From Methanocaldococcus sp. FS406-22 (GTDB lineage Archaea > AGJL01 > Methanococci > Methanococcales > Methanocaldococcaceae): a stretch of 64,000 nucleotides of DNA. A program made the translations under genes and the position numbers. The stretch is taken from positions 196,729-260,728 of the forward strand of contig NC_013887.1 of assembly GCF_000025525.1 (NCBI RefSeq), read 5' to 3'. The notes below the pieces were generated by a model. The model worked only from the letters and a program-made list of their open reading frames with translations, was not told the origin of the DNA and did not search any database. Shown here piece by piece: positions 2,619 through 12,296 of the stretch. Positions within the stretch are counted from its first letter, which is position 1. Every line of letters starts with the position of its first letter.

Positions 2619-2633
2619 ATTAGATTTTCTAAT
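2619..2633. promoter_or_regulatory. 15-bp palindromic operator upstream of hdrA
   Basis: The sequence ATTAGATTTTCTAAT is a perfect inverted repeat around a 3-base centre. Read on the coding strand it is ATTAGAAAATCTAAT, identical to the copies before vhcD and before the 8107 operon. It contains the T-N11-A core typical of LysR-type regulators. It lies 21 bases upstream of the hdrA start and just downstream of an AT-rich TATA-like stretch (about 2645-2660), where a repressor would block transcription. Confidence 0.65.
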
Positions 2634-2678
2634 AGGTTAAGGAATAATATTATAACGATACATTTTAATACACAAAAT

Positions 2679-3848
2679 TTACTTCAATGCTAAAACCTTC
2701 TTCTCTTTCTCAGCTACACTTAAGCAGAGTAAGCACATTACGCAGTAGCCTTTTAGTGGTAGTTTGCCTCTTGATAGTCTTAAAGTCTTCATTGGGCAGA
2801 CTTCTACACATTTTCCGCATTTGTCACATAAGTATGGGCTGAATTCGATTCTGTTATACTCTTTACCGTTATGTTCTATCTTACCTAATTTTAAAGCTCC
2901 GGTTGGGCAGGCTACAGTACAAGCTCCGCAGACGATGCACATTCTGACTTCTTTTTTATCCTCATCGACTACTATTGCCTCAGTTGGGCAGACTGAGGCA
3001 CATTTTTTCAAAACCTCATAGTCCTCTTCTACGATGACTAAACCTTCATCGGTTATTGGGTGTGGTGAGCTTAACTTAACCTCTAACTCTAATGCATTGA
3101 CTGGGCAGGTGTTTACACAGAGTTTACAAGCTGGACATGATTTTGGTGGGATGACAATCATATTTTCTTTATCAACCTTAATCATATTCCCTGGACAGAC
3201 TTCGACACACTTTAGACAGTAGATACACTTCTCTGCATTGACTTCGAACTTCTTAACCTCCTTCCTCCTCTTCTTAGGTATCTTACCAGCTACGAATATG
3301 GCATTCCATGGACATGTTTGAGCACAAATACTACAGTAAATACACTTACTCTTATCAATAACTGCCTTCCCATCCTCTAAGGTTATTGCACTTACAGGAC
3401 ACTCAGGAACACAAATTCCACAACCAACACAAGCCTCTGTAACTACAATCGGTTCCTTCGGAGCCTTAACCTCCCTCTTAGGCTTATCAATAACTCCAGG
3501 CAAGGAGATGATTTCAATCGGACAAACTTCAATACATTTTTGGCAAAGGACACAATGTCCTTTTGAGTAAGGGAAGTCATCATCAACCTTCTTTATCCCA
3601 ATAGGACAAGCCTCAGCACAGTTACCGCATTTCTCACACTTATGAGCCAAATAACTAACCCTCTTCAACTTCTTTCCGTTGATTTCTATTTCTTCCTCAA
3701 CCAAAGCCCCAGTCGGACAAGCCTTAACACACTCCATACACAAGTTACACACGTTAAAATTATCTATATCTATTGCTTTGGTTGGACACTCCGCCTGACA
3801 CGCATAACACACCAAACAAGCATCCCTCTGAATTGTTATCCCATTCAT
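2679..3848 (-). CDS. vhcB: Polyferredoxin of the F420-non-reducing hydrogenase
   Basis: This is a multi-cluster electron carrier associated with Vhu/Vhc hydrogenase. Its 389 residues contain at least ten CxxCxxCxxxCP motifs (for example [48 protein letters not shown]), enough for about ten [4Fe-4S] clusters arranged as tandem two-cluster units. The last motif near the C-terminus ([10 protein letters not shown]) is incomplete. The gene begins 2 bases after the vhcA stop and is the fourth gene of vhcDGAB. The name vhc rather than vhu is chosen because the operon encodes only Cys-type proteins. Confidence 0.93.
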
Positions 3849-3850
3849 GG

Positions 3851-5269
3851 CTATCCCATTATTTTCTTTGATAATCTATTTCCTTGAAAGATTTCTAAGG
3901 TTAAATGACCTTCATTACCAATTATGTGAGTTGCACATGATAGGCATGGGTCGTAGGCTCTGATAACCATCTCCATGTAGTTTAAAACTTGAGGAGTTGC
4001 ATCTTCTGGAGATTTTATGTATTTTTCAGCAACTTTTCTAACTCCAATGTCCATAGCTGGGTTGTTTTGCACTGTTGCAACAATCAAATTAGCTTCGGTT
4101 ATTATTCCATCTTCATCTGTTTTGAAGTGATGAATTAAAGTTCCTCTCGGAGCTTCAACACATCCAACTCCTTCTCCCACAATATCTTCTGGCTCTGCTC
4201 TAATATCAGTATCAACAATCTTATCGTTCTCTAAAAGCTCTTTTACCTTTTCAGCACTTGATAAAAGCTCTATCAACCTTGCATAGTGGAAGAGCATTGG
4301 GTAGTGGCATGGTTTTCCAAATTCTTTAATAAATTCTTCATAATACTTCTGTGCCAATGGTGTTGCCATCTTATCAGCAACATTTAATCTCGAGAGAGTA
4401 TTTACCCTATAAATTCCTTCTTCAGGGCCTTTATCTTTAAGATATGGGAATTTCAAATAAGAGTAGGGCTTAACACCCTCAGCTATATAGTTTAAATACT
4501 CTGATGGCTCAAATTCATACTCAACTTTTCCTTTTGGATTTATTACTCTTAATGTTCCATCATAGAGTTCATGAACTCCATCATTTACCATTCCTAAATG
4601 ATATGACTCAAAGTAGCCAATATCTAACAAATCATTCTCTTTTAAGTTTTCAAGGAGTTTTTTACCAATTTCAATAGATTTTTCTGACAACTCTATAGCT
4701 CTTTCAGATAGTTTTAATAACTCATCTCTTTCCTCTTCTTTCAACGGCTTTGACTGCCCCCCAACAACTGCCGTAACTGGATGTATTGCCCTTCCTCCAA
4801 CAACTTTAACAATTGTCTGCCCTATCTTCCTCAACTCTATAGCCTCTTTAACAATCTCTGGATGTTCTTTAGCTATGCCTAAGATATTTCTTCTTAAAAC
4901 ATCATCTGTTGTTGGAAACATTAAATCTGGAGCAGCTAAGAAGTAAAAGTGTAAAGCATGGCTGTGGATTGTTGCTCCTTGATGCATTAAATTTCTTAAA
5001 AGCTCTGCTGTTTCTGGGATTTTTACTCCAAACACTTCATCAACAGCCTTAGCACTTGCTAAATGGTGGGCTACTTGGCAGATACCGCAGATTCTTGGTG
5101 TGTAGATTGGAGCATCCTCTATATACCTTCCTTCTAAAAATTTTTCAAACCCTCTAACCTCAACAACATGAAAATGAACCTTATCCAAATTTCCATTTTC
5201 ATCAAAGGATATGGTTATTTTTCCATGCCCTTCAACCCTTGTAACCGGCTCAACTGATAATTTTACCAT
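3851..5269 (-). CDS. vhcA: F420-non-reducing [NiFe] hydrogenase large subunit, unsplit cysteine form
   Basis: This is the nickel-binding subunit that oxidises H2 for the Hdr complex. Its 472 residues carry both Ni ligand motifs: [11 protein letters not shown] near the N-terminus and DPCLSCATH near the C-terminus. A tail of about 24 residues after that His would be removed by a maturation protease. In selenium-type Vhu operons the second motif sits on a separate selenopolypeptide (VhuU). Here it is fused in-frame and has Cys, which defines the Vhc class. The gene starts 13 bases downstream of vhcG and runs into vhcB. The RBS on the coding strand is AGGTGG. Confidence 0.95.
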
Positions 5270-5282
5270 TTTACCACCTAAG

Positions 5283-6179
5283 TTATCTTAATTTTCCTGG
5301 AATTAAGGCACTTGGAAGGGTAAATTTATAAAAACTTCCAATCTTATCTTTTATTGATTTAGGTAGGGCAGTTGGGTCTGTTTCTTTATCTTTGTCTATT
5401 CCAAAGTCAGAGCATAGGGCGGAAATCATCTTAGCCCCTTGGTCTATAACCGCATCTGTCGGCCCATTACAGCCACTACATGGCACGCCAGCTCTTGGGC
5501 AGAGTGCTCCACAGCCAGCCCTTGTTACTATACCGAGACAGAGATAGCCCTGCTCTAAGAGACATCTTTCTGGGTCTGGTTTCCCTTCAAATTTTCTTTT
5601 TATTTTACCTATAGAGATTCCATTAGTGCTTTTCTTCCTTGGACATTCATCACATAGGTTTTTCTTTGGCAATTCTGGTTTTTTTCCTTCTAATAGTGCT
5701 TTTAACACTTTAGCTATCATCTCTGGATTTGGTGGGCATCCTGGGATGAAGTAATCGACATCAATAATCTCAGAGAGTGGTTTAACCCTTGAAGTTAATG
5801 GAGGAACTTCTTCACTTGGAATAATGCCCTCATCATTCTTTGTTGATAGAGTTGTCTTATAAACTTTCTCTAAAATCTCTTCTTTTGAGTATAAGTTTCC
5901 TAAGCCAGGGACTCCTCCAAAAGTGGCACACGTTCCAAAAGCAATAACTATTTTGGCTTTATTTCTCATTTCTTTAGCTATTTCTTCATTTTCTTTATTC
6001 CTAATTCCACCTTCAATTAATGCAATGTCTATTTCATCAGGAATCTCCTTAACATCCATTAATACAGGGCAATGGATAAGTTCAACATTCTCCAACAAGT
6101 TTAAAAGCTCTTCATGCAAATCTAACAAGCTTATATGGCATCCAGAACAGCAACACAACCAAGTAGTTGCTATTACCAT
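5283..6179 (-). CDS. vhcG: F420-non-reducing [NiFe] hydrogenase small subunit
   Basis: This is the iron-sulfur small subunit that carries electrons from the NiFe site to VhcD and HdrA. The 298 residues show the N-terminal proximal-cluster motif (WLCCCSGCH), the GTCATFGG motif near residue 103, PGCPPNPE near residue 168, and several further Cys in the C-terminal half (CDECPRK, CSGCNGP). There is no Tat signal, consistent with a cytoplasmic complex. It starts 9 bases after vhcD and precedes vhcA in the usual D-G-A-B order. Confidence 0.94.
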
Positions 6180-6188
6180 TAAATCACC

Positions 6189-6608
6189 TTATTCTTTTAA
6201 TTTTTCATTTAGTTTTAATGGACCTAATGCTTTTATTGTGTTATAGAACTCTATCATTGTCTTTTGGAATTTTTCTCCTTCAGATGCAGAAATCCACTCA
6301 AATCTAAATCTCTCTGGCTCAATGCCAAATTCTGGAAGCAATTGCTTTAAAAAGATAGCCCTTCTTTGCCATTTGTAGTTTCCAGAATCATAGTGGCAGT
6401 CTCCCAAGTGGCAGCCTCCAACAAAAACCCCATCTGCTCCCTCTCTAAACGCCTTTAAAATTAGGGATGGCTCAATTCTTCCAGAACACATAACTCTAAT
6501 TATTCTTATGCTTGGAGGATACTGCATCCTTCCAACTCCTGCTGTATCTGCTCCTCCGTAAGTGCACCAGTTGCAACAAAAACCAATGATCTTTGGCTCC
6601 CATTCCAT
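6189..6608 (-). CDS. vhcD: F420-non-reducing hydrogenase iron-sulfur subunit D, cysteine form
   Basis: This protein links the hydrogenase to HdrA and binds a [2Fe-2S] cluster. The 139 residues contain [11 protein letters not shown] near the N-terminus, VMCSGRI, and [10 protein letters not shown] at about residues 84-93. From memory, the VhuD form in related species has selenocysteine in the last motif; here it is Cys. The start ATG at 6606-6608 follows AGGTGAGAGG. It is the first gene of vhcDGAB, and a palindromic operator directly precedes its RBS. Confidence 0.94.
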
Positions 6609-6618
6609 CCTCTCACCT

Positions 6619-6633
6619 ATTAGAAAATCTAAT
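6619..6633. promoter_or_regulatory. 15-bp palindromic operator upstream of vhcD
   Basis: ATTAGAAAATCTAAT is a perfect palindrome with a T-N11-A core, extended by TATGCA exactly as at 8047. It sits between a TATA-like stretch (about 6668-6685 on the minus strand) and the vhcD RBS, 10 bases from the start codon. A repressor position is inferred. Confidence 0.65.
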
Positions 6634-6720
6634 ATGCATATTGCTTTATCTGATATTTGGTTGGCACAACCAATATTTAAAGCATGCTATTAAACTCAAA
6701 TAGAAAATTTTATAAAGGAT

Positions 6721-6797: not shown

Positions 6798-6862
6798 CAG
6801 ATAAGGTTATTAACTCCAAAATACATTTTTTAAAGAGAAATAATGGTAAATATTGAAAATAT

Positions 6863-6877
6863 ATTAGAAAACCTAAT
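6863..6877. promoter_or_regulatory. Operator copy upstream of the 2-hydroxyacyl-CoA-dehydratase-like gene
   Basis: ATTAGAAAACCTAAT matches the 15-bp operator at 14 of 15 positions. It ends 6 bases before the first possible ATG of the downstream gene, or about 30 bases before a better-supported internal start. Confidence 0.55.
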
Positions 6878-6883
6878 AACTAA

Positions 6884-8026
6884 ATGGCTATTAAGTTTGG
6901 TGATATGATGCAATTAAAGGCAATTGAGAAGTTGATGCAAAAGTTTGCAAGTAGAAAAGAACAACTCTACAAGCAAAAAGAAGAAGGCAAAAAAGTCTTT
7001 GGAATGTTCTGTGCCTATGTTCCGATAGAGATTATCTTAGCTGCAGATGCAATTCCAGTTGGTTTGTGTGGAGGGAAGAATGATACAATCCCAATAGCAG
7101 AGGAGGATTTACCAAGAAACCTCTGCCCCTTAATAAAATCATCCTATGGATTTAAGAAGGCAAAAACTTGTCCATACTTTGAGGCATCAGATATAGTTAT
7201 TGGAGAAACCACCTGCGAAGGAAAGAAGAAGATGTTTGAGTTGATGGAGAGATTAGTACCTATGCATATTATGCATCTCCCTCATATGAAAGATGATGCC
7301 TCCCTAAACATATGGATTAATGAAGTTAAGAAACTAAAGGAATTGGTTGAAAAAGAAACTGGAAATAAAATAACAGAAGAGAAATTAAAAGAGACAGTTG
7401 ATAAGGTAAATAAAGTTAGAGAGTTGTTTTATAAACTCTATGAGTTGAGGAAGAATAAACCAACTCCAATTAGAGGTTTAGATGTTTTAAAGCTCTTCCA
7501 ATTTGCTTATTTATTGGATATTGATGATACTATAGAGATTTTGGAGGATTTAATTAAAGAGTTGGAGGAGAGAGTTAAAAAAGGAGAAGGTTATGAAGGT
7601 AAAAGAATTTTAATAACTGGCTGTCCAATGGTTGCTGGAAATAACAAGATTGTTGAGCTTATTGAAGAGGTTGGAGGAGTTGTTGTTGGTGAAGAGAGTT
7701 GTACAGGAACAAGGTTCTTTGAAAACTATGTTGAGGGCTACAGCATAGAAGATATAGCAAAAAGATACTTCAAAATCCCTTGTGCATGCAGATTTAAAAA
7801 TGATGAGAGAATTGAGAATATAAAAAGATTGGTTAAGGAATTGGATGTTGATGGAGTTGTTTATTACACTCTGCAATATTGCCACACATTCAACATAGAG
7901 GGGGCTAAGGTAGAGGAAGCATTAAAAGAGGAAGGTATTCCAGTTATAAGAATTGAAACTGATTACTCTGAAAGTGATAGGGAGCAGTTAAAAACAAGGT
8001 TGGAGGCATTTATTGAGATGATTTAG
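6884..8026 (+). CDS. 2-hydroxyacyl-CoA dehydratase D-family / double-cubane-cluster-like protein
   Basis: This 380-residue protein belongs to the HgdB/BcrC-type 2-hydroxyacyl-CoA dehydratase family. Members bind iron-sulfur clusters and are reduced by an ATP-driven activator to perform low-potential chemistry. Features visible are [13 protein letters not shown] near residue 40, PLIKSSYGF, a [11 protein letters not shown] segment at about 107-117 and GCPMVAG near residue 246; Cys residues are spread as in the family. No CoA-dehydratase partner or activator gene is adjacent, so its substrate is unknown. ATG 6884 lacks a good RBS. GGTGAT at 6899-6904 supports a start at 6905 or 6908. It is divergent from vhcD and shares its operators. 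Confidence 0.85.
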
Positions 8027-8046
8027 ATTTATTCCTTTTTTTAATT

Positions 8047-8061
8047 ATTAGAAAATCTAAT
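8047..8061. promoter_or_regulatory. 15-bp palindromic operator upstream of the 8107 operon
   Basis: ATTAGAAAATCTAAT is identical to the vhcD and hdrA copies and shares the TATGCA extension with the vhcD copy. It is directly upstream of a TATA box (about 8068-8080), so it may activate this operon or block TBP/TFB, unlike the downstream placement at hdrA and vhcD. Confidence 0.6.
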
Positions 8062-8106
8062 ATGCACTTTTATATATTTTAATCTCCTACTATTTTTTGT
8101 GGGAGC

Positions 8107-8754
8107 ATGATAGGCATCTGCATGCGTTCTAAGGAGGGATTTATGTTTAACAACAAGTTAATAGATTGGGGCTTGCACTATAACCCAAAAATTGTAAAAG
8201 ATAACAACATTATCGGCTATCATGCTCCAATTTTGGATTTAGATAAAAAAGAGAGTATTCCAATTTTAAAAAACATAATTAAAGAGATTAGAGGAAAGAG
8301 CTATTTAACAATTCACTTACACAATGGAAAAAACAGAGAGATTGATAAAGAGGCATTAATTGAAAATCTATCGATTGTCAATGAATTTGCTCAAGAAAAT
8401 AGCATAAAATTATGCATAGAGAATTTAAGGCAAGGATTTTCATCAAATCCAAATAATATAATTGAGATAGCGGATGAAATCAACTGCTTTATAACGTTTG
8501 ATATTGGGCATATTCCTTATGATAAGAGAGTAGAGTTCTTAGAAATCTGCTCAGACAGAATTTATAACTCCCACGTTTATGAGATTGAAAAAGATGGAAG
8601 GCATTTACCACCAAAAAATCTCAACAATTTAAAGCCAATACTGGATAGACTCTTAGATGTTAAATGTGAGATGTTTTTAATTGAACTAATGGAGATTAAA
8701 GAAATTTTAGCTACTGAAAGAATGTTGAGAGATTATTTAGAAAAATATTGGTGA
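8107..8754 (+). CDS. Sugar phosphate isomerase/epimerase-like TIM-barrel protein
   Basis: The 215 residues look like a compact xylose-isomerase/AP-endonuclease-2 type TIM barrel. Strand-end motifs carry probable metal or acid/base residues: LTIHLHNG, KLCIENLR, ITFDIGH and YNSHVYE. The usual length of the superfamily is 250-300, so this is a small member. The substrate cannot be read from the sequence. The start ATG at 8107 follows GTGGGAG. It opens a tightly packed operon with genes at 8761, 9599, 10887 and 11466, preceded by the palindromic operator at 8047. Confidence 0.75.
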   Translation: MIGICMRSKEGFMFNNKLIDWGLHYNPKIVKDNNIIGYHAPILDLDKKESIPILKNIIKEIRGKSYLTIHLHNGKNREIDKEALIENLSIVNEFAQENSIKLCIENLRQGFSSNPNNIIEIADEINCFITFDIGHIPYDKRVEFLEICSDRIYNSHVYEIEKDGRHLPPKNLNNLKPILDRLLDVKCEMFLIELMEIKEILATERMLRDYLEKYW

Positions 8755-8760
8755 TGGGCT

Positions 8761-9591
8761 ATGATATTTAACCAAAATATCCCAAATTTCATTGATTTTA
8801 AGAAGTCATTTAAAGAACTAACCTTATCTGATGAAACATTTAAAATAATTGAAGAACGTGGAATAAAGCTAAATGAGATTGCTATTGGTGAGTTTTCGGG
8901 TAGAGATAGCGTAGCGGCAATAATCAAAGCTATGGAAGAAGGTATCGATTTTGTTTTGCCAGTTGTTGCATTTACTGGGACTGATTATGGAAATATAGCA
9001 ATTTTTTACAAAAACTGGGAAATAACAAACAGAAGAATCAAAGAAATTGATAAAGATAAAGTTTTACTGCCTTTGCATTTCATGTTTGAGCCAAAGCTTT
9101 GGAATGCGTTAAATGGGAGATGGGTAGTTTTATTATTCAAAAGATATGGTTATTACAGCCCATGTATTGGATGCCATGCATATTTGAGGATAATTAGAAT
9201 TCCATTAGCAAGGCATTTAGGAAATAAGATAATCAGTGGAGAGAGGCTCTATCACAACGGAGATTTTAAAATTGACCAAATAGAGGAGGTTTTAAATGTT
9301 TATAGCAAAATCTGCAGAGATTTTGATGTTGAGCTAATTTTGCCTATAAGATACATAAAAGAGGGTAAGAAAATCAAGGAAATTATAGGAGAAGAGTGGG
9401 AGCAGGGAGAAAAACAATTTTCATGCGTCTTTAGTGGAAATTATAGGGATAAAGATGGAAAGGTAATTTTTGAAAAAATAGGAATTTTAAAGCTGTTAAA
9501 TGAATTTATCTACCCAGCTTCAATTGAAATTTTAAAAGAAGGCTATAAGGGAAACTTCAACTATCTAAATATTGTTAAAAGAATCATTTAG
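8761..9591 (+). CDS. PP-loop ATP-pyrophosphatase-like protein (adenine nucleotide alpha hydrolase fold)
   Basis: The 276 residues carry a PP-loop-like signature, EFSGRDSVAA, near residues 43-52. This recalls the SGGxDS loop of enzymes that adenylate a substrate before adding sulfur or nitrogen. A Cys pair (CIGCHAYLRI) near residue 135 and a later Cys (QFSCVFSGNY) could bind zinc or iron-sulfur, or carry sulfur. It begins 6 bases after the preceding stop and is probably translationally coupled. The target molecule is not identifiable. Similarity to PAPS-reductase-like enzymes is an inference from the fold only. Confidence 0.75.
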   Translation: MIFNQNIPNFIDFKKSFKELTLSDETFKIIEERGIKLNEIAIGEFSGRDSVAAIIKAMEEGIDFVLPVVAFTGTDYGNIAIFYKNWEITNRRIKEIDKDKVLLPLHFMFEPKLWNALNGRWVVLLFKRYGYYSPCIGCHAYLRIIRIPLARHLGNKIISGERLYHNGDFKIDQIEEVLNVYSKICRDFDVELILPIRYIKEGKKIKEIIGEEWEQGEKQFSCVFSGNYRDKDGKVIFEKIGILKLLNEFIYPASIEILKEGYKGNFNYLNIVKRII

Positions 9592-9598
9592 TGATAGA

Positions 9599-10885
9599 AT
9601 GAGAGCTATTTTAATCCTATTGGATGGTTTAGGAGATAGAGGTTCTGAAATCTTAGATAATAAAACTCCATTACAATTTGCAAACACTCCAAATTTAGAT
9701 AGATTAGCTGAAAATGGAATGTGCGGCTTAATGACAACATATAAAGAAGGCATTCCTCTGGGGACGGAAGTAGCTCACTTTCTACTTTGGGGCTATTCCT
9801 TAGAAGAATTTCCGGGAAGAGGGGTTATTGAGGCTTTAGGAGAGGATGTTGAGATTGAGGAAAATGCCGTTTATCTGAGAGCATCATTGGGTTTTGTTAA
9901 AAAGGATGAAAATGGATTTTTGGTAATAGATAGAAGAACTAAGGATATTAGCAGAGATGAAATTGAAAAATTAATAAGTGATTTCCCTACTTTTGTAGAT
10001 GGATATGAGTTTGAGCTTATCTATTCTTACGATGTTCATTTTATATTAAAAATTAAAGAGAAAAATGGCTGGATTTCAGATAAAATCTCTGATTCAGACC
10101 CATTCTATAAAAATAGACATGTTATGAAAGTTCAAGCAGTAAAAGAGCTTTGTAAAAGTGAGGTAGAGTATAACAAAGCAAAAGACACTGCAAGGGCTTT
10201 AAATAAATATCTTTTAAGTGTATACAAAATCCTACAAAATCATAAAATAAACAGAAAGAGAAGAAAGTTGGAGAAGATGCCAGCTAACTTTTTATTGACA
10301 AAATGGGCTTCAAGATATAAAAAAGTAGAAAGCTTTAAAGAAAGATGGGGAATGAACGCTGTTATCTTAGCAGAAAGCTCACTATTTAGAGGATTAGCCA
10401 AATTCTTAGGCATGGATTTTATAAAGATTGAGAGCTTTGAGGAAGGAATAAATTTAATTTCGGAGTTGGATTATGATTTCATCCATTTACATACGAAAGC
10501 TCCAGATGAAGCCGCACACACTAAAAATCCATTAAATAAGGTTAGAGTTATTGAAAAAATTGATAAACTTATAGGCAATTTAAGGCTAAGGGATGATGAC
10601 TTATTAATAATAACTGCAGACCACTCAACACCCTCTGTTGGAGATTTAATCCATTCTGGTGAGAGTGTTCCAATCCTATTTTACGGCAAAAATGTTAGAA
10701 CTGATAATGTTAGAGAGTTTAATGAAATTGCTTGCTCAAATGGGCATTTGAAGATAAGAGGAGATGAACTAATGCCTCTAATTTTAAACTACACTGATAG
10801 AGCTTTATTATATGGATTGAGAGCTGGAAATAGGTTAAGGCGTTACATTCCAAAAGATGATGACATAGAACTATTGGAGGGATAG
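9599..10885 (+). CDS. apgM: 2,3-bisphosphoglycerate-independent phosphoglycerate mutase, archaeal type
   Basis: This enzyme interconverts 3- and 2-phosphoglycerate in glycolysis and gluconeogenesis and belongs to the alkaline phosphatase superfamily. Starting at ATG 9599 the protein is 428 residues and begins MRAILILLDGLGDR, with the metal-binding Asp in LLDGLGDR. Further family motifs are TPNLDRLAENG, the HLHTKAPDEAAH segment and the ITADHSTPS metal site. The frame could begin at 9572, inside the previous gene, but the RBS (AGTGAT) and the family N-terminus favour 9599. Its place within an operon of otherwise uncharacterised enzymes is notable. Confidence 0.93.
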   Translation: MRAILILLDGLGDRGSEILDNKTPLQFANTPNLDRLAENGMCGLMTTYKEGIPLGTEVAHFLLWGYSLEEFPGRGVIEALGEDVEIEENAVYLRASLGFVKKDENGFLVIDRRTKDISRDEIEKLISDFPTFVDGYEFELIYSYDVHFILKIKEKNGWISDKISDSDPFYKNRHVMKVQAVKELCKSEVEYNKAKDTARALNKYLLSVYKILQNHKINRKRRKLEKMPANFLLTKWASRYKKVESFKERWGMNAVILAESSLFRGLAKFLGMDFIKIESFEEGINLISELDYDFIHLHTKAPDEAAHTKNPLNKVRVIEKIDKLIGNLRLRDDDLLIITADHSTPSVGDLIHSGESVPILFYGKNVRTDNVREFNEIACSNGHLKIRGDELMPLILNYTDRALLYGLRAGNRLRRYIPKDDDIELLEG

Positions 10886-10886
10886 T

Positions 10887-11450
10887 TTGATAGGAAAACT
10901 AAAAAATTTATTTAAATTAAAAAAAGAAACAAAAAAAGAAAAAGAAAGCTTGGAGGGAAAAGGACTAATAATATTTGAAAATACAAAGGATGCCATGAAG
11001 GCTGAAAATATATTAAAAGGCAAATATAAGATTAAGGTTGTTGCTCCACCGGCAGAGATTAGAGAGGGCTGTGATTTGGCAATAGAGTATGAGTTAATAG
11101 ATGAATTTGGGATTAAAAGAGAATTGGAAATTAATGGAATAAAGCCTTTAAAATTTATCTCTTTAAGTGATTATTCTTTAAAACCATTGGAGTTGATAAA
11201 GGTTAAAGAAGTAGATGGCTTTATCTTAGTTAGATGTGGAAATATGAAGATAACCATTGATAAAGAGGGAAATATCGTTAATATCTCTGGTGGTGGCTGT
11301 CCAGACGTGCCTTATTTAGCATTAAAATTAAAGGGAAAGAATATTAAAGAGATTAAAGAGGAAGAAACTCCAAAAAATTTGGGTTTTACTTTGTGTGCAT
11401 ACACATTACATAAAGCTTATGAAAAGGCAAAAGAGTTGGTTAATGAATAA
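10887..11450 (+). CDS. DUF3343 (putative Se/S carrier-like) domain protein with a conserved C-terminal extension
   Basis: The 187 residues start with a charged, Lys-rich leader (1-25). Residues about 27-70 resemble DUF3343 (IIFENTKDAMKAENILK, then PPAEIREGCDLAIEY). That domain is annotated as a putative selenium or sulfur carrier because of one conserved Cys, here in REGCDLA. A second part (about 110-187) contains SGGGCPDVPYLAL and FTLCAYTLHKAYE, two more potentially reactive Cys. The start is TTG at 10887, right after the apgM stop and behind GGAGG at 10876-10880. The biochemical role is unknown; the carrier idea comes from the domain name and context. Confidence 0.7.
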   Translation: MIGKLKNLFKLKKETKKEKESLEGKGLIIFENTKDAMKAENILKGKYKIKVVAPPAEIREGCDLAIEYELIDEFGIKRELEINGIKPLKFISLSDYSLKPLELIKVKEVDGFILVRCGNMKITIDKEGNIVNISGGGCPDVPYLALKLKGKNIKEIKEEETPKNLGFTLCAYTLHKAYEKAKELVNE

Positions 11451-11465
11451 GTTAAAGGGATTATT

Positions 11466-12296
11466 ATGATTATAGCAGGAACTATGCCAATAAAAGGATT
11501 GGATTTGGTTATTGGAAAAGCTACACTAAAAGGGGATAAAATAATAATAAATAACAAAGAGTTTCCAGTGTCCATGGGAACAGGGGCTTTAATAGGGGCA
11601 GTTTTAAAAACATTAGAGTATTTTGGTGAAAAAGATGTTAAGATAATAACTGCTGGAGATATTGGAGAAGGAGATGGAAGCTTAAAGATATATAACGCAT
11701 TGAAGGAGATTGACGATGACTTACTTATAATACATTATATAAAACCAAAGATTTCAAAAATTAAGGAAATTGATTTCTCACCAAAGATTATTGCAGATGC
11801 TGGAGGCATGTATGCGGCAAAAGCAGCAAATATAGGGGATAAATTTTACCTATTTCTTCCAGATGTTGGTGAATTGGCATTTTTAGCAGATGAGAAAGCT
11901 ACACATCCTGCCTATGTGAGAGGATTTATATCTGAGATAGACGATAAAGAAGTACCAAAACTTATTGAAAGAGCTTATAAACTAAAAATGCCTAAATATA
12001 TGGTTGTTAAAGGGGAAACTGACTATATTGTTAAAGAGGGAGAGATAACTAATACTATAAAAGAACCAAAAATAGAAGCAATGGAGTGTATTGGAGGGAC
12101 TGGAGATACTTTAACAGGGATAATATCATCTTTAATAAGTGTTGGTTTTAATGCTGAAGAAGCTATGAGTTTAGGGTGTAAAATAAATAGAAAACTTGGA
12201 GAAGTAGCTAATGCTAAGCCAAATACACAGGTTATAGAGATTATTAGCACTATCCCAAAAGCTTTAGAGATGACATTGAAACAAATAAAACAATAA
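11466..12296 (+). CDS. NAD(P)HX dehydratase / ribokinase-fold protein
   Basis: The 276 residues fit the carbohydrate-kinase-like fold of YjeF C-terminal (ADP-dependent NAD(P)H-hydrate dehydratase) proteins. Supporting segments are PVSMGTGALIGAVLK, IIADAGGMYAAKAA, a GETDYIVKEGE strand and the phosphate-binding CIGGTGDTLTGIIS anion hole near the C-terminus. The YjeF N-terminal epimerase domain is absent. It follows the DUF3343 gene by 15 bases and is probably the last gene of the operon that starts at 8107. A different small-molecule kinase or dehydratase activity is possible. Confidence 0.65.
   Translation: MIIAGTMPIKGLDLVIGKATLKGDKIIINNKEFPVSMGTGALIGAVLKTLEYFGEKDVKIITAGDIGEGDGSLKIYNALKEIDDDLLIIHYIKPKISKIKEIDFSPKIIADAGGMYAAKAANIGDKFYLFLPDVGELAFLADEKATHPAYVRGFISEIDDKEVPKLIERAYKLKMPKYMVVKGETDYIVKEGEITNTIKEPKIEAMECIGGTGDTLTGIISSLISVGFNAEEAMSLGCKINRKLGEVANAKPNTQVIEIISTIPKALEMTLKQIKQ

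Follow-up and report, generated by a model that had tools for sequence, protein, structure and literature searches.

Gene content of the locus

The analyzed window was a 64,000-nt stretch of the genome of Methanocaldococcus sp. FS406-22, a thermophilic methanogenic archaeon (NC_013887.1, assembly GCF_000025525.1, positions 196,729 to 260,728 of the forward strand), to which all coordinates below refer. An earlier note had placed TIM-barrel, PP-loop, DUF3343, NAD(P)HX-dehydratase-like and HgdB-like genes at 6884–12296, and all the genes reported there were confirmed as real ORFs. Five of the genes in this region form a run at 8107–12296, all on the plus strand and separated by 6, 7, 1 and 15 bp, which bears out the earlier picture of five tightly packed genes behind a common box; the apgM-like gene, a member of the run, was missing from the heading of the note, and the HgdB-like gene turned out to be a separate unit. 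On the minus strand lie vhcDGAB (2679–6608), encoding an F420-non-reducing hydrogenase with Cys replacing Sec, and the Cys form of hdrA together with the start of fwdB (3–2597), both preceded by the same box as the five-gene operon.

The HgdB-like gene (6884–8026, plus strand) encodes a DCCP/HGD-D protein, i.e., a double-cubane-cluster anaerobic reductase, which scores 503.5 bits against NF040772 (equivalog cut-off 350) and can therefore be counted among the known double-cubane cluster proteins (DCCP), the cluster being predicted from sequence. As DCCP has a box of its own and is followed by 80 bp of intergenic DNA before the TIM gene, it is treated as an adjoining transcription unit, outside the five-gene operon. 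Activase genes adjoin DCCP in related genomes; what is new for this family is the predicted selenium-type control.

The first gene of the operon (8107–8754, plus strand) encodes a 215-aa TIM-barrel protein (PF01261; AP_endonuc_2/xylose isomerase-like), with H/E/D residues invariant across phyla and CbiR, below its cut-off, as the nearest named relative. The product of the third gene (9599–10885, plus strand), an apgM-like binuclear metalloenzyme of the archaeal phosphoglycerate mutase family, scores 351.6 bits against TIGR00306 (cut-off 320), and one bacterial counterpart 310 bits. It shares family and invariant metal-ligand-type residues with the archaeal apgM enzymes of the MJ0010/MJ1612 type, but differs in that it pairs with the PP-loop gene across phyla and in most members carries GTE where GSD is expected, at what is presumably the position of the nucleophile. 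Enzymes of the apgM family can be ordinary phosphoglycerate mutases.

The fourth gene (10887–11450, plus strand) encodes a DUF3343/Se_S_carrier protein (PF11823, 61.8 bits against a gathering score of 25) with an additional C-terminal part; Cys62, Cys138 and Cys170 are invariant in the alignment, and in other genomes DUF3343 clusters with YedE. Since its predicted model reached a pTM of only 0.52 and had no significant match in PDB, no claim is made for the C-terminal part. The last gene (11466–12296, plus strand) encodes a YjeF/NNRD-like protein with a kinase fold, belonging to a subfamily linked to selenium. With 40.8 bits against yjeF_cterm (NCBIfam cut-off 129.85) it falls short of the NAD(P)HX dehydratase family and, judged by its sequence, is a distant NNRD/YjeF relative and not a member. 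Its ortholog is located 39 bp from selD in one Clostridia genome, the only one among 293 in which this family was found, which is too rare for statistics.

A new family of PP-loop enzymes

The second gene (8761–9591, plus strand) encodes a protein for which no Pfam match at E ≤ 0.1 and no NCBIfam family match were obtained, and whose comparison with PDB sequences gave nothing better than E 0.69 and no PP-loop enzyme. Its AF2 model (pLDDT 86.6, pTM 0.89) was searched against known folds and matched best YcfA, MnmA and TtuA (E 3e-6 to 5e-4), with NcsA also close. Together with the motif GEFSGRDS, in which SGRDS is of the SGGxDS type and G47, D49 and S50 are invariant, the predicted fold places the protein in the PP-loop ATP pyrophosphatase superfamily, and the fold that the earlier note had read by eye was in this way borne out. 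We consider it a new family of PP-loop enzymes, with a predicted fold of the sulfur-transfer type.

Three cysteines, i.e., C135 (9163–9165), C138 (9172–9174) and C222 (9424–9426), are invariant in 52 sequences of the family. The model is unreliable at residues 220–227, C222 included, and the pattern of C135-x2-C138 plus C222 is the one seen in the sequence. Members of the superfamily that hold Fe-S clusters carry the same Cys-x2-Cys ... Cys pattern, and the three cysteines may hold a [4Fe-4S] cluster. No sequence relationship to the solved members of the Fe-S thiolase group (TtuA/NcsA/TtcA) was detected. More generally, the protein resembles the PP-loop sulfur transferases YcfA, MnmA, TtuA/NcsA and ThiI in its predicted fold and PP-loop motif, but differs from them in having neither a detected sequence relationship nor a recognised RNA-binding domain, and in being surrounded by selenium genes and not tRNA genes. 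The role in adding or removing sulfur or selenium that the earlier note proposed for it is consistent with the predicted fold and the three invariant cysteines.

A shared operator and the predicted selenium-starvation regulon

The box TATTAGAAAATCTAATA precedes the five-gene operon (8046–8062) as well as vhcD (6618–6634), TATTAGAAAACCTAATA precedes DCCP (6862–6878), and TATTAGAAAATCTAA precedes the Cys-form hdrA (2620–2634, minus strand). The common palindrome of the earlier note proved to be real: within the whole 1.77 Mb genome there are three exact TATTAGAAAATCTAA sites, at 2620, 6618 and 8046 of the window, and a one-mismatch copy is located at 6862. Another 17-bp palindrome, TTGGTTGGCACAACCAA at 6657, was considered as a control site and rejected, as other vhc promoters do not keep it.

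The palindrome may be written as TATTAG-N5-CTAATA. Across Methanococcales it is kept ahead of DCCP, the TIM-PP-apgM unit and the selenium-transporter gene yedE, and in the FS406-22 genome also ahead of vhc, hdrA and selD, the strongest boxes of this genome being those of hdrA, vhcD, TIM, DCCP, yedE and selD. A matrix trained on the DCCP sites, with a background of 460 upstream regions (intergenic only), matched TIM (p = 1e-8), yedE (4e-8), vhcD (1e-7), frcA (5e-4) and hdrA (8e-4), and gave no match against this background ahead of PP, apgM, DUF3343 or YjeF. Likewise, no box was found ahead of fwdB, DUF3343 and YjeF, as expected of genes internal to operons; within the region of interest the box stands ahead of DCCP and TIM only, and a splitting of the operon by unrelated promoters was not seen. 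As the genome-wide number of 15-mers with up to two mismatches was not above that of the reversed control, weight was given to close matches only. Some exact copies precede genes without an obvious selenium role (psmA), and in Methanococcus the operator is partly degenerate.

In 13 genomes the exact 17-mer is found no more than about 90 bp upstream of a LysR_Sec-type (HrsM-type) gene, in 12 it stands ahead of DCCP, and it also precedes tusA-dsrE, hmd and the gene of a ModA-like binding protein. In Methanococcus maripaludis, selenium depletion was described to induce TusAD, hmd, a molybdate-binding protein, YedE and the PgtC/PhnU ABC operon (PMC11097638), so that the operator is common to the TIM operon and to homologs of selenium-responsive genes. 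The selenium regulon of HrsM (LysR_Sec), as portrayed in the available text of the same work, involves the same kind of regulator and includes the Cys-form vhc/frc, yedE, tus and hmd among its selenium-responsive genes. Relative to that text, what is added here is a proposed operator sequence, order-wide and present also in the promoter of the LysR gene itself, with DCCP and TIM-PP-apgM as further predicted members; our literature search found no paper reporting the HrsM operator sequence or these genes as members of the regulon. Judging from the sequences, the HrsM/LysR_Sec regulator very probably binds TATTAG-N5-CTAATA, and the selenium-status role put forward in the earlier note is supported by an operator common to the Cys-form hydrogenase genes, selD, yedE and the LysR_Sec gene.

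Association with SelD and the proposed role

Outside the methanogens, SelD above the cut-off was found in 27 of the 28 bacterial genomes carrying PP, nearly all with an in-frame TGA, compared to 71 of 293 Clostridia taken as background; PP was clearly present in three of these Clostridia, all SelD-positive. The co-occurrence suggested as a check in the earlier note was in this way found, and the distribution is not that of orthologs scattered over genomes without selenium traits. The most conserved partner of PP is apgM, which adjoins it at nearly all bacterial loci. The majority of the bacterial PP-apgM pairs are located away from selD, and one Actinomycetota locus brings YedE, DUF3343, YjeF, LysR_Sec, SelD, TIM, PP, apgM and YedF together. 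The association with SelD speaks against assigning TIM-PP-apgM to central or phosphonate metabolism, adjacent to DUF3343-YjeF and the Cys-form hydrogenases by chance. Such an assignment would fit an apgM above the phosphoglycerate mutase cut-off and adjoining PhnS-like ABC binding proteins, but the SelD co-occurrence, the Actinomycetota cluster and the operator kept ahead of TIM in many genomes make it very improbable.

Within Methanococcales, the presence or absence of Sec dependence is uninformative as a test, since SpcS occurs in 36 of 36 genomes. PP occurs in 25 of the 36, which indicates that it is not required for selenocysteine; the 11 Sec-positive genomes without a PP match point to an optional, accessory module, and one further genome has only a decayed copy. 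All 16 genomes with the Cys-form VhcA carry PP (Fisher p = 1.7e-4, kinship uncorrected). This, as well as the box common to the Cys-form vhc and hdrA and the identical box of the tusA-dsrE sulfur relay genes, would agree with a sulfur-based substitute made when selenium is absent, e.g., a thio-compound replacing a seleno-compound in the way that Cys isoenzymes replace selenoproteins. We regard it as unlikely, as the bacterial PP-apgM pair tracks SelD, needless for such a substitute, and DUF3343 and YjeF occur in clusters that include YedE and SelD.

The run with the PP enzyme is very likely an undescribed selenium-handling module, a reading based on the control site common to low-selenium genes and on neighbours that in an unrelated bacterium are core selenium genes. 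The regulatory and genomic link to selenium is strong, and taken by itself we hold this link to be highly probable; the reaction is what we infer. In the proposed explanation, the operon and the adjoining DCCP gene are part of a Methanococcales selenium-starvation regulon: as the promoter carries an operator very probably bound by HrsM/LysR_Sec, the operon would be repressed at plentiful selenium and switched on, alongside the Cys-form enzymes, when it is scarce. A selenium compound would be imported by YedE, or in other members by a PhnS/PgtC-type ABC transporter, and its phosphorylated carbon moiety would be the target of the apgM-like enzyme and of TIM, whose place is taken by PHP in Clostridia. 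With ATP and its three cysteines (probably with a [4Fe-4S] cluster), the PP-loop enzyme would form or cleave the bond between carbon and chalcogen, and selenium would then be handed on towards SelD by DUF3343 (through Cys62), with the help of the YjeF-like protein. What the enzyme acts on, which way the reaction runs and in which sequence the steps follow are given here as we would propose them. Most likely the PP enzyme mobilises selenium from an imported compound during starvation; given the selenium link, we put this mechanism at even chances, and the explanation as a whole, joining the regulon with an acquisition and mobilisation module, appears somewhat favoured.

Several observations count against this explanation: M. 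maripaludis deleted for yedE or the PgtC operon was described to retain the use of every selenium source tested (PMC11097638), and the selD-distant bacterial pairs, the partly degenerate operator, its exact copies ahead of genes such as psmA, the low confidence of the PP model around C222, the optional nature of the module and a possibly ordinary apgM weigh in the same direction. The module might instead build a selenium-containing small molecule or cofactor, with PP adenylating a phosphorylated precursor and the selenophosphate of SelD giving selenium, as YcfA, a small-molecule thiolase, does with sulfur for 6-thioguanine. The contiguity with selD and yedF, the closeness of the PP fold to YcfA and the presence of SelD in nearly all PP carriers would suit this, but the operator groups the module with genes on at selenium scarcity, an odd time for consuming selenium, and the module adjoins uptake systems and DCCP, so that we consider this alternative rather unlikely, albeit the least so of the three.

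Compared with the candidate selenium genes YedE/YedF/DUF3343/LysR_Se of Lin et al. 2015 (PMC5322559), which also noted that YedE is split in archaea, the likeness lies in LysR_Se and in DUF3343 near YedF, activase and 2-hydroxyglutaryl-CoA dehydratase-like genes, and the difference in the main text of that work containing no PP-loop, phosphoglycerate mutase or TIM-barrel protein, nor a YjeF-like gene among its four candidates. A literature search combining PP-loop, selD and phosphoglycerate mutase found no report of such a link. It may tentatively be asked whether TIM-PP-apgM-DUF3343-YjeF represents a further selenium pathway beside selenocysteine, selenouridine and the labile Se cofactor, one that methanogens share with at least three phyla of bacteria. 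Its PP-loop Fe-S enzyme would then act on a phosphorylated small molecule, forming or cleaving a C-Se bond; we see this as possible, though doubtful.

The results bear on selenium scavenging and trafficking upstream of SelD and on the targets of HrsM, for which they yield a concrete operator and an order-wide predicted selenium-starvation regulon. They also put the enigmatic DCCP into a physiological context and introduce a new family of enzymes that is linked to SelD across several phyla. With the selenium reporter strain and deletion tools of M. maripaludis, these predictions would be testable if its TIM-PP-apgM genes sit where gene order suggests.

Gene layout and the two modules

In this 1.77 Mb genome, whose relatives include Methanocaldococcus sp. 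SG1, the Cys-form fwdB, hdrA and vhcBAGD genes are located on the minus strand of the window. The double-cubane-cluster protein gene (DCCP, 6884-8026) lies on the plus strand and is followed by a nearly gapless plus-strand operon (8107-12296) encoding, in this order, TIM barrel, PP-loop (PP), apgM-like, DUF3343 and YjeF-like proteins, with an Hmd-related gene (TIGR01724, 12363-13391, plus strand) directly 3' of it. The gene list of the earlier note stands, save that its title lacks the apgM-like gene; DCCP has its own box upstream and is separated from TIM by 80 bp, and thus does not belong to the five-gene operon.

A tblastn comparison of the window genes with regions of 24 other genomes revealed a stable TIM-PP-apgM core; DCCP, DUF3343 and YjeF adjoin it in only part of the congeneric genomes. 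In other loci, DUF3343 and YjeF stand behind the two halves of the selenium transporter YedE (each half matches TIGR04112 with a score under the cut-off for the full length); therefore, the window operon combines two modules, TIM-PP-apgM and (YedE)-DUF3343-YjeF. Elsewhere, DCCP has an activase and a putative desulfidase (CD3072-type, TudS-related) in its vicinity. The triplet has decayed in genomes G002 and G011; decayed copies were found in loci L081 and L330, the latter of which has kept its operator. In locus L062 (12671-13813), a short FdhA-like gene with Cys replacing Sec diverges from DCCP across a common operator.

The operator and the selenium response

The palindrome TATTAGAAAATCTAA has three exact copies genome-wide, all inside 5.4 kb of the window, before hdrA, vhcD and TIM. 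With at most one mismatch there are nine sites, which additionally include those of DCCP, yedE and selD, two inside ORFs, and one before genes of unclear role. A matrix trained on DCCP sites (background: intergenic regions) recovered the TIM, yedE, vhcD, frcA and hdrA promoters, reverse training also worked, and operon-internal genes scored at background level. Among 36 genomes, the symmetric 17-mer TATTAG-N5-CTAATA was about twice as common as its reversed control. A separate perfect palindrome, TTGGTTGGCACAACCAA (6657-6673), lies between vhcD and DCCP and was found in none of the other vhc promoters compared. About 85 bp upstream of this genome's Sec-containing selD (L004, 349-1518) lies a near-exact copy of the operator, common to a divergent nucleotidyltransferase-like gene, whereas sps of M. 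maripaludis was reported not to be regulated by selenium.

Autoregulation via T-N11-A sites is common among LysR proteins, and the 17-mer stands just upstream of the single LysR_Sec-like gene in 13/36 genomes. As HrsM is moreover the known selenium repressor of vhc/frc (PMC11097638), it is the likely operator-binding protein. Further exact sites precede tusA-dsrE, hmd (G018 and G019; L323, L324), mtd (near it in L313, L314 and L329) and a ModA-like binding protein gene. On selenium depletion of M. maripaludis, TusAD, hmd, a molybdate-binding protein and YedE are reported up and mtd down (PMC11097638). These changes link the operator to measured selenium responses, with orthology assigned by family and context rather than by a tree. 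Because mtd falls, the regulator could act as an activator as well; alternatively, the site may serve the divergent transporter-like gene. Several genomes (L317, L318, L319, L328) also have an exact operator upstream of the gene for the proteasome alpha subunit, which has no evident link to selenium.

The PP-loop protein and its distribution

The PP protein (8761-9591) has no family match in Pfam or NCBIfam and no sequence relative among PDB entries. Its predicted fold (pLDDT 86.6; weak around C222) is closest to YcfA, then to MnmA, TtuA, ThiI and NcsA, and 52 sequences without exception have C135, C138 and C222. The PP proteins of G018-G020 (L082-L084) have two additional inserts and a total length of 384-417 aa.

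When 84,980 species genomes were scanned with the PP alignment, non-exhaustively because the scan rested on two short conserved patterns (one containing the third cysteine), 30 PP loci beyond Methanococcales emerged; they belong to Bacillota, Actinomycetota, Thermodesulfobacteriota and a single genome classed as Myxococcota. With few exceptions, apgM is beside PP in these loci; TIM is found in those of Actinomycetota and Thermodesulfobacteriota, while Bacillota often have a gene with a PHP domain. Methanococcales form a single clade beside Bacillota in a tree. With kinship ignored, SelD exceeded its cut-off in 27 of the 28 PP-bearing genomes outside Methanococcales, nearly always with an in-frame TGA. 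Among 293 Clostridia genomes (kinship likewise ignored), 71 had SelD and three a clear PP, all three with SelD. Within Methanococcales, all 16 carriers of Cys-form VhcA have PP (p=1.7e-4, kinship ignored), which may partly reflect ancestry; where a genome is fragmentary, its PP gene may have been lost in assembly. All 36 genomes of the phylum sample contain SpcS, the archaeal gene for selenocysteine.

Locus L251 (Actinomycetota) combines YedE, DUF3343, YjeF-like, LysR_Sec (opposite strand), SelD with TGA, TIM, PP, apgM and YedF, with LysR_Sec, SelD, YedE and YedF all above NCBIfam cut-offs; L248 (Clostridia) holds YedE, YedF/TusA-like, DUF3343, YjeF-like and SelD, with an adjoining LysR_Sec gene. 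Their gene content is the strongest evidence that the window genes constitute a selenium set.

Transporter neighbours and the putative role

In Methanococcaceae, the vicinity of TIM-PP-apgM holds genes for a binding protein resembling PhnS/PgtC, a permease and an ATPase, with operator boxes of 0-2 mismatches; similar genes occur near PP-apgM in Clostridia. The four-gene layout of L077, M. maripaludis-like as judged from gene order, corresponds to that of MMJJ_09760-09790, whose induction under selenium depletion is reported to reach 5.9 log2 (PMC11097638).

The gene set, its association with selenium genes, the operator, the predicted fold and the invariant residues are observations; binding by the regulator, induction of the operon, the cofactor, the substrate and the direction of the reaction are inferred. 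It is possible that the module performs cofactor synthesis or provides a sulfur substitute. Because the common operator marks starvation genes, and the neighbours are uptake systems and DCCP, the favoured role of the module would be selenium acquisition or mobilisation.
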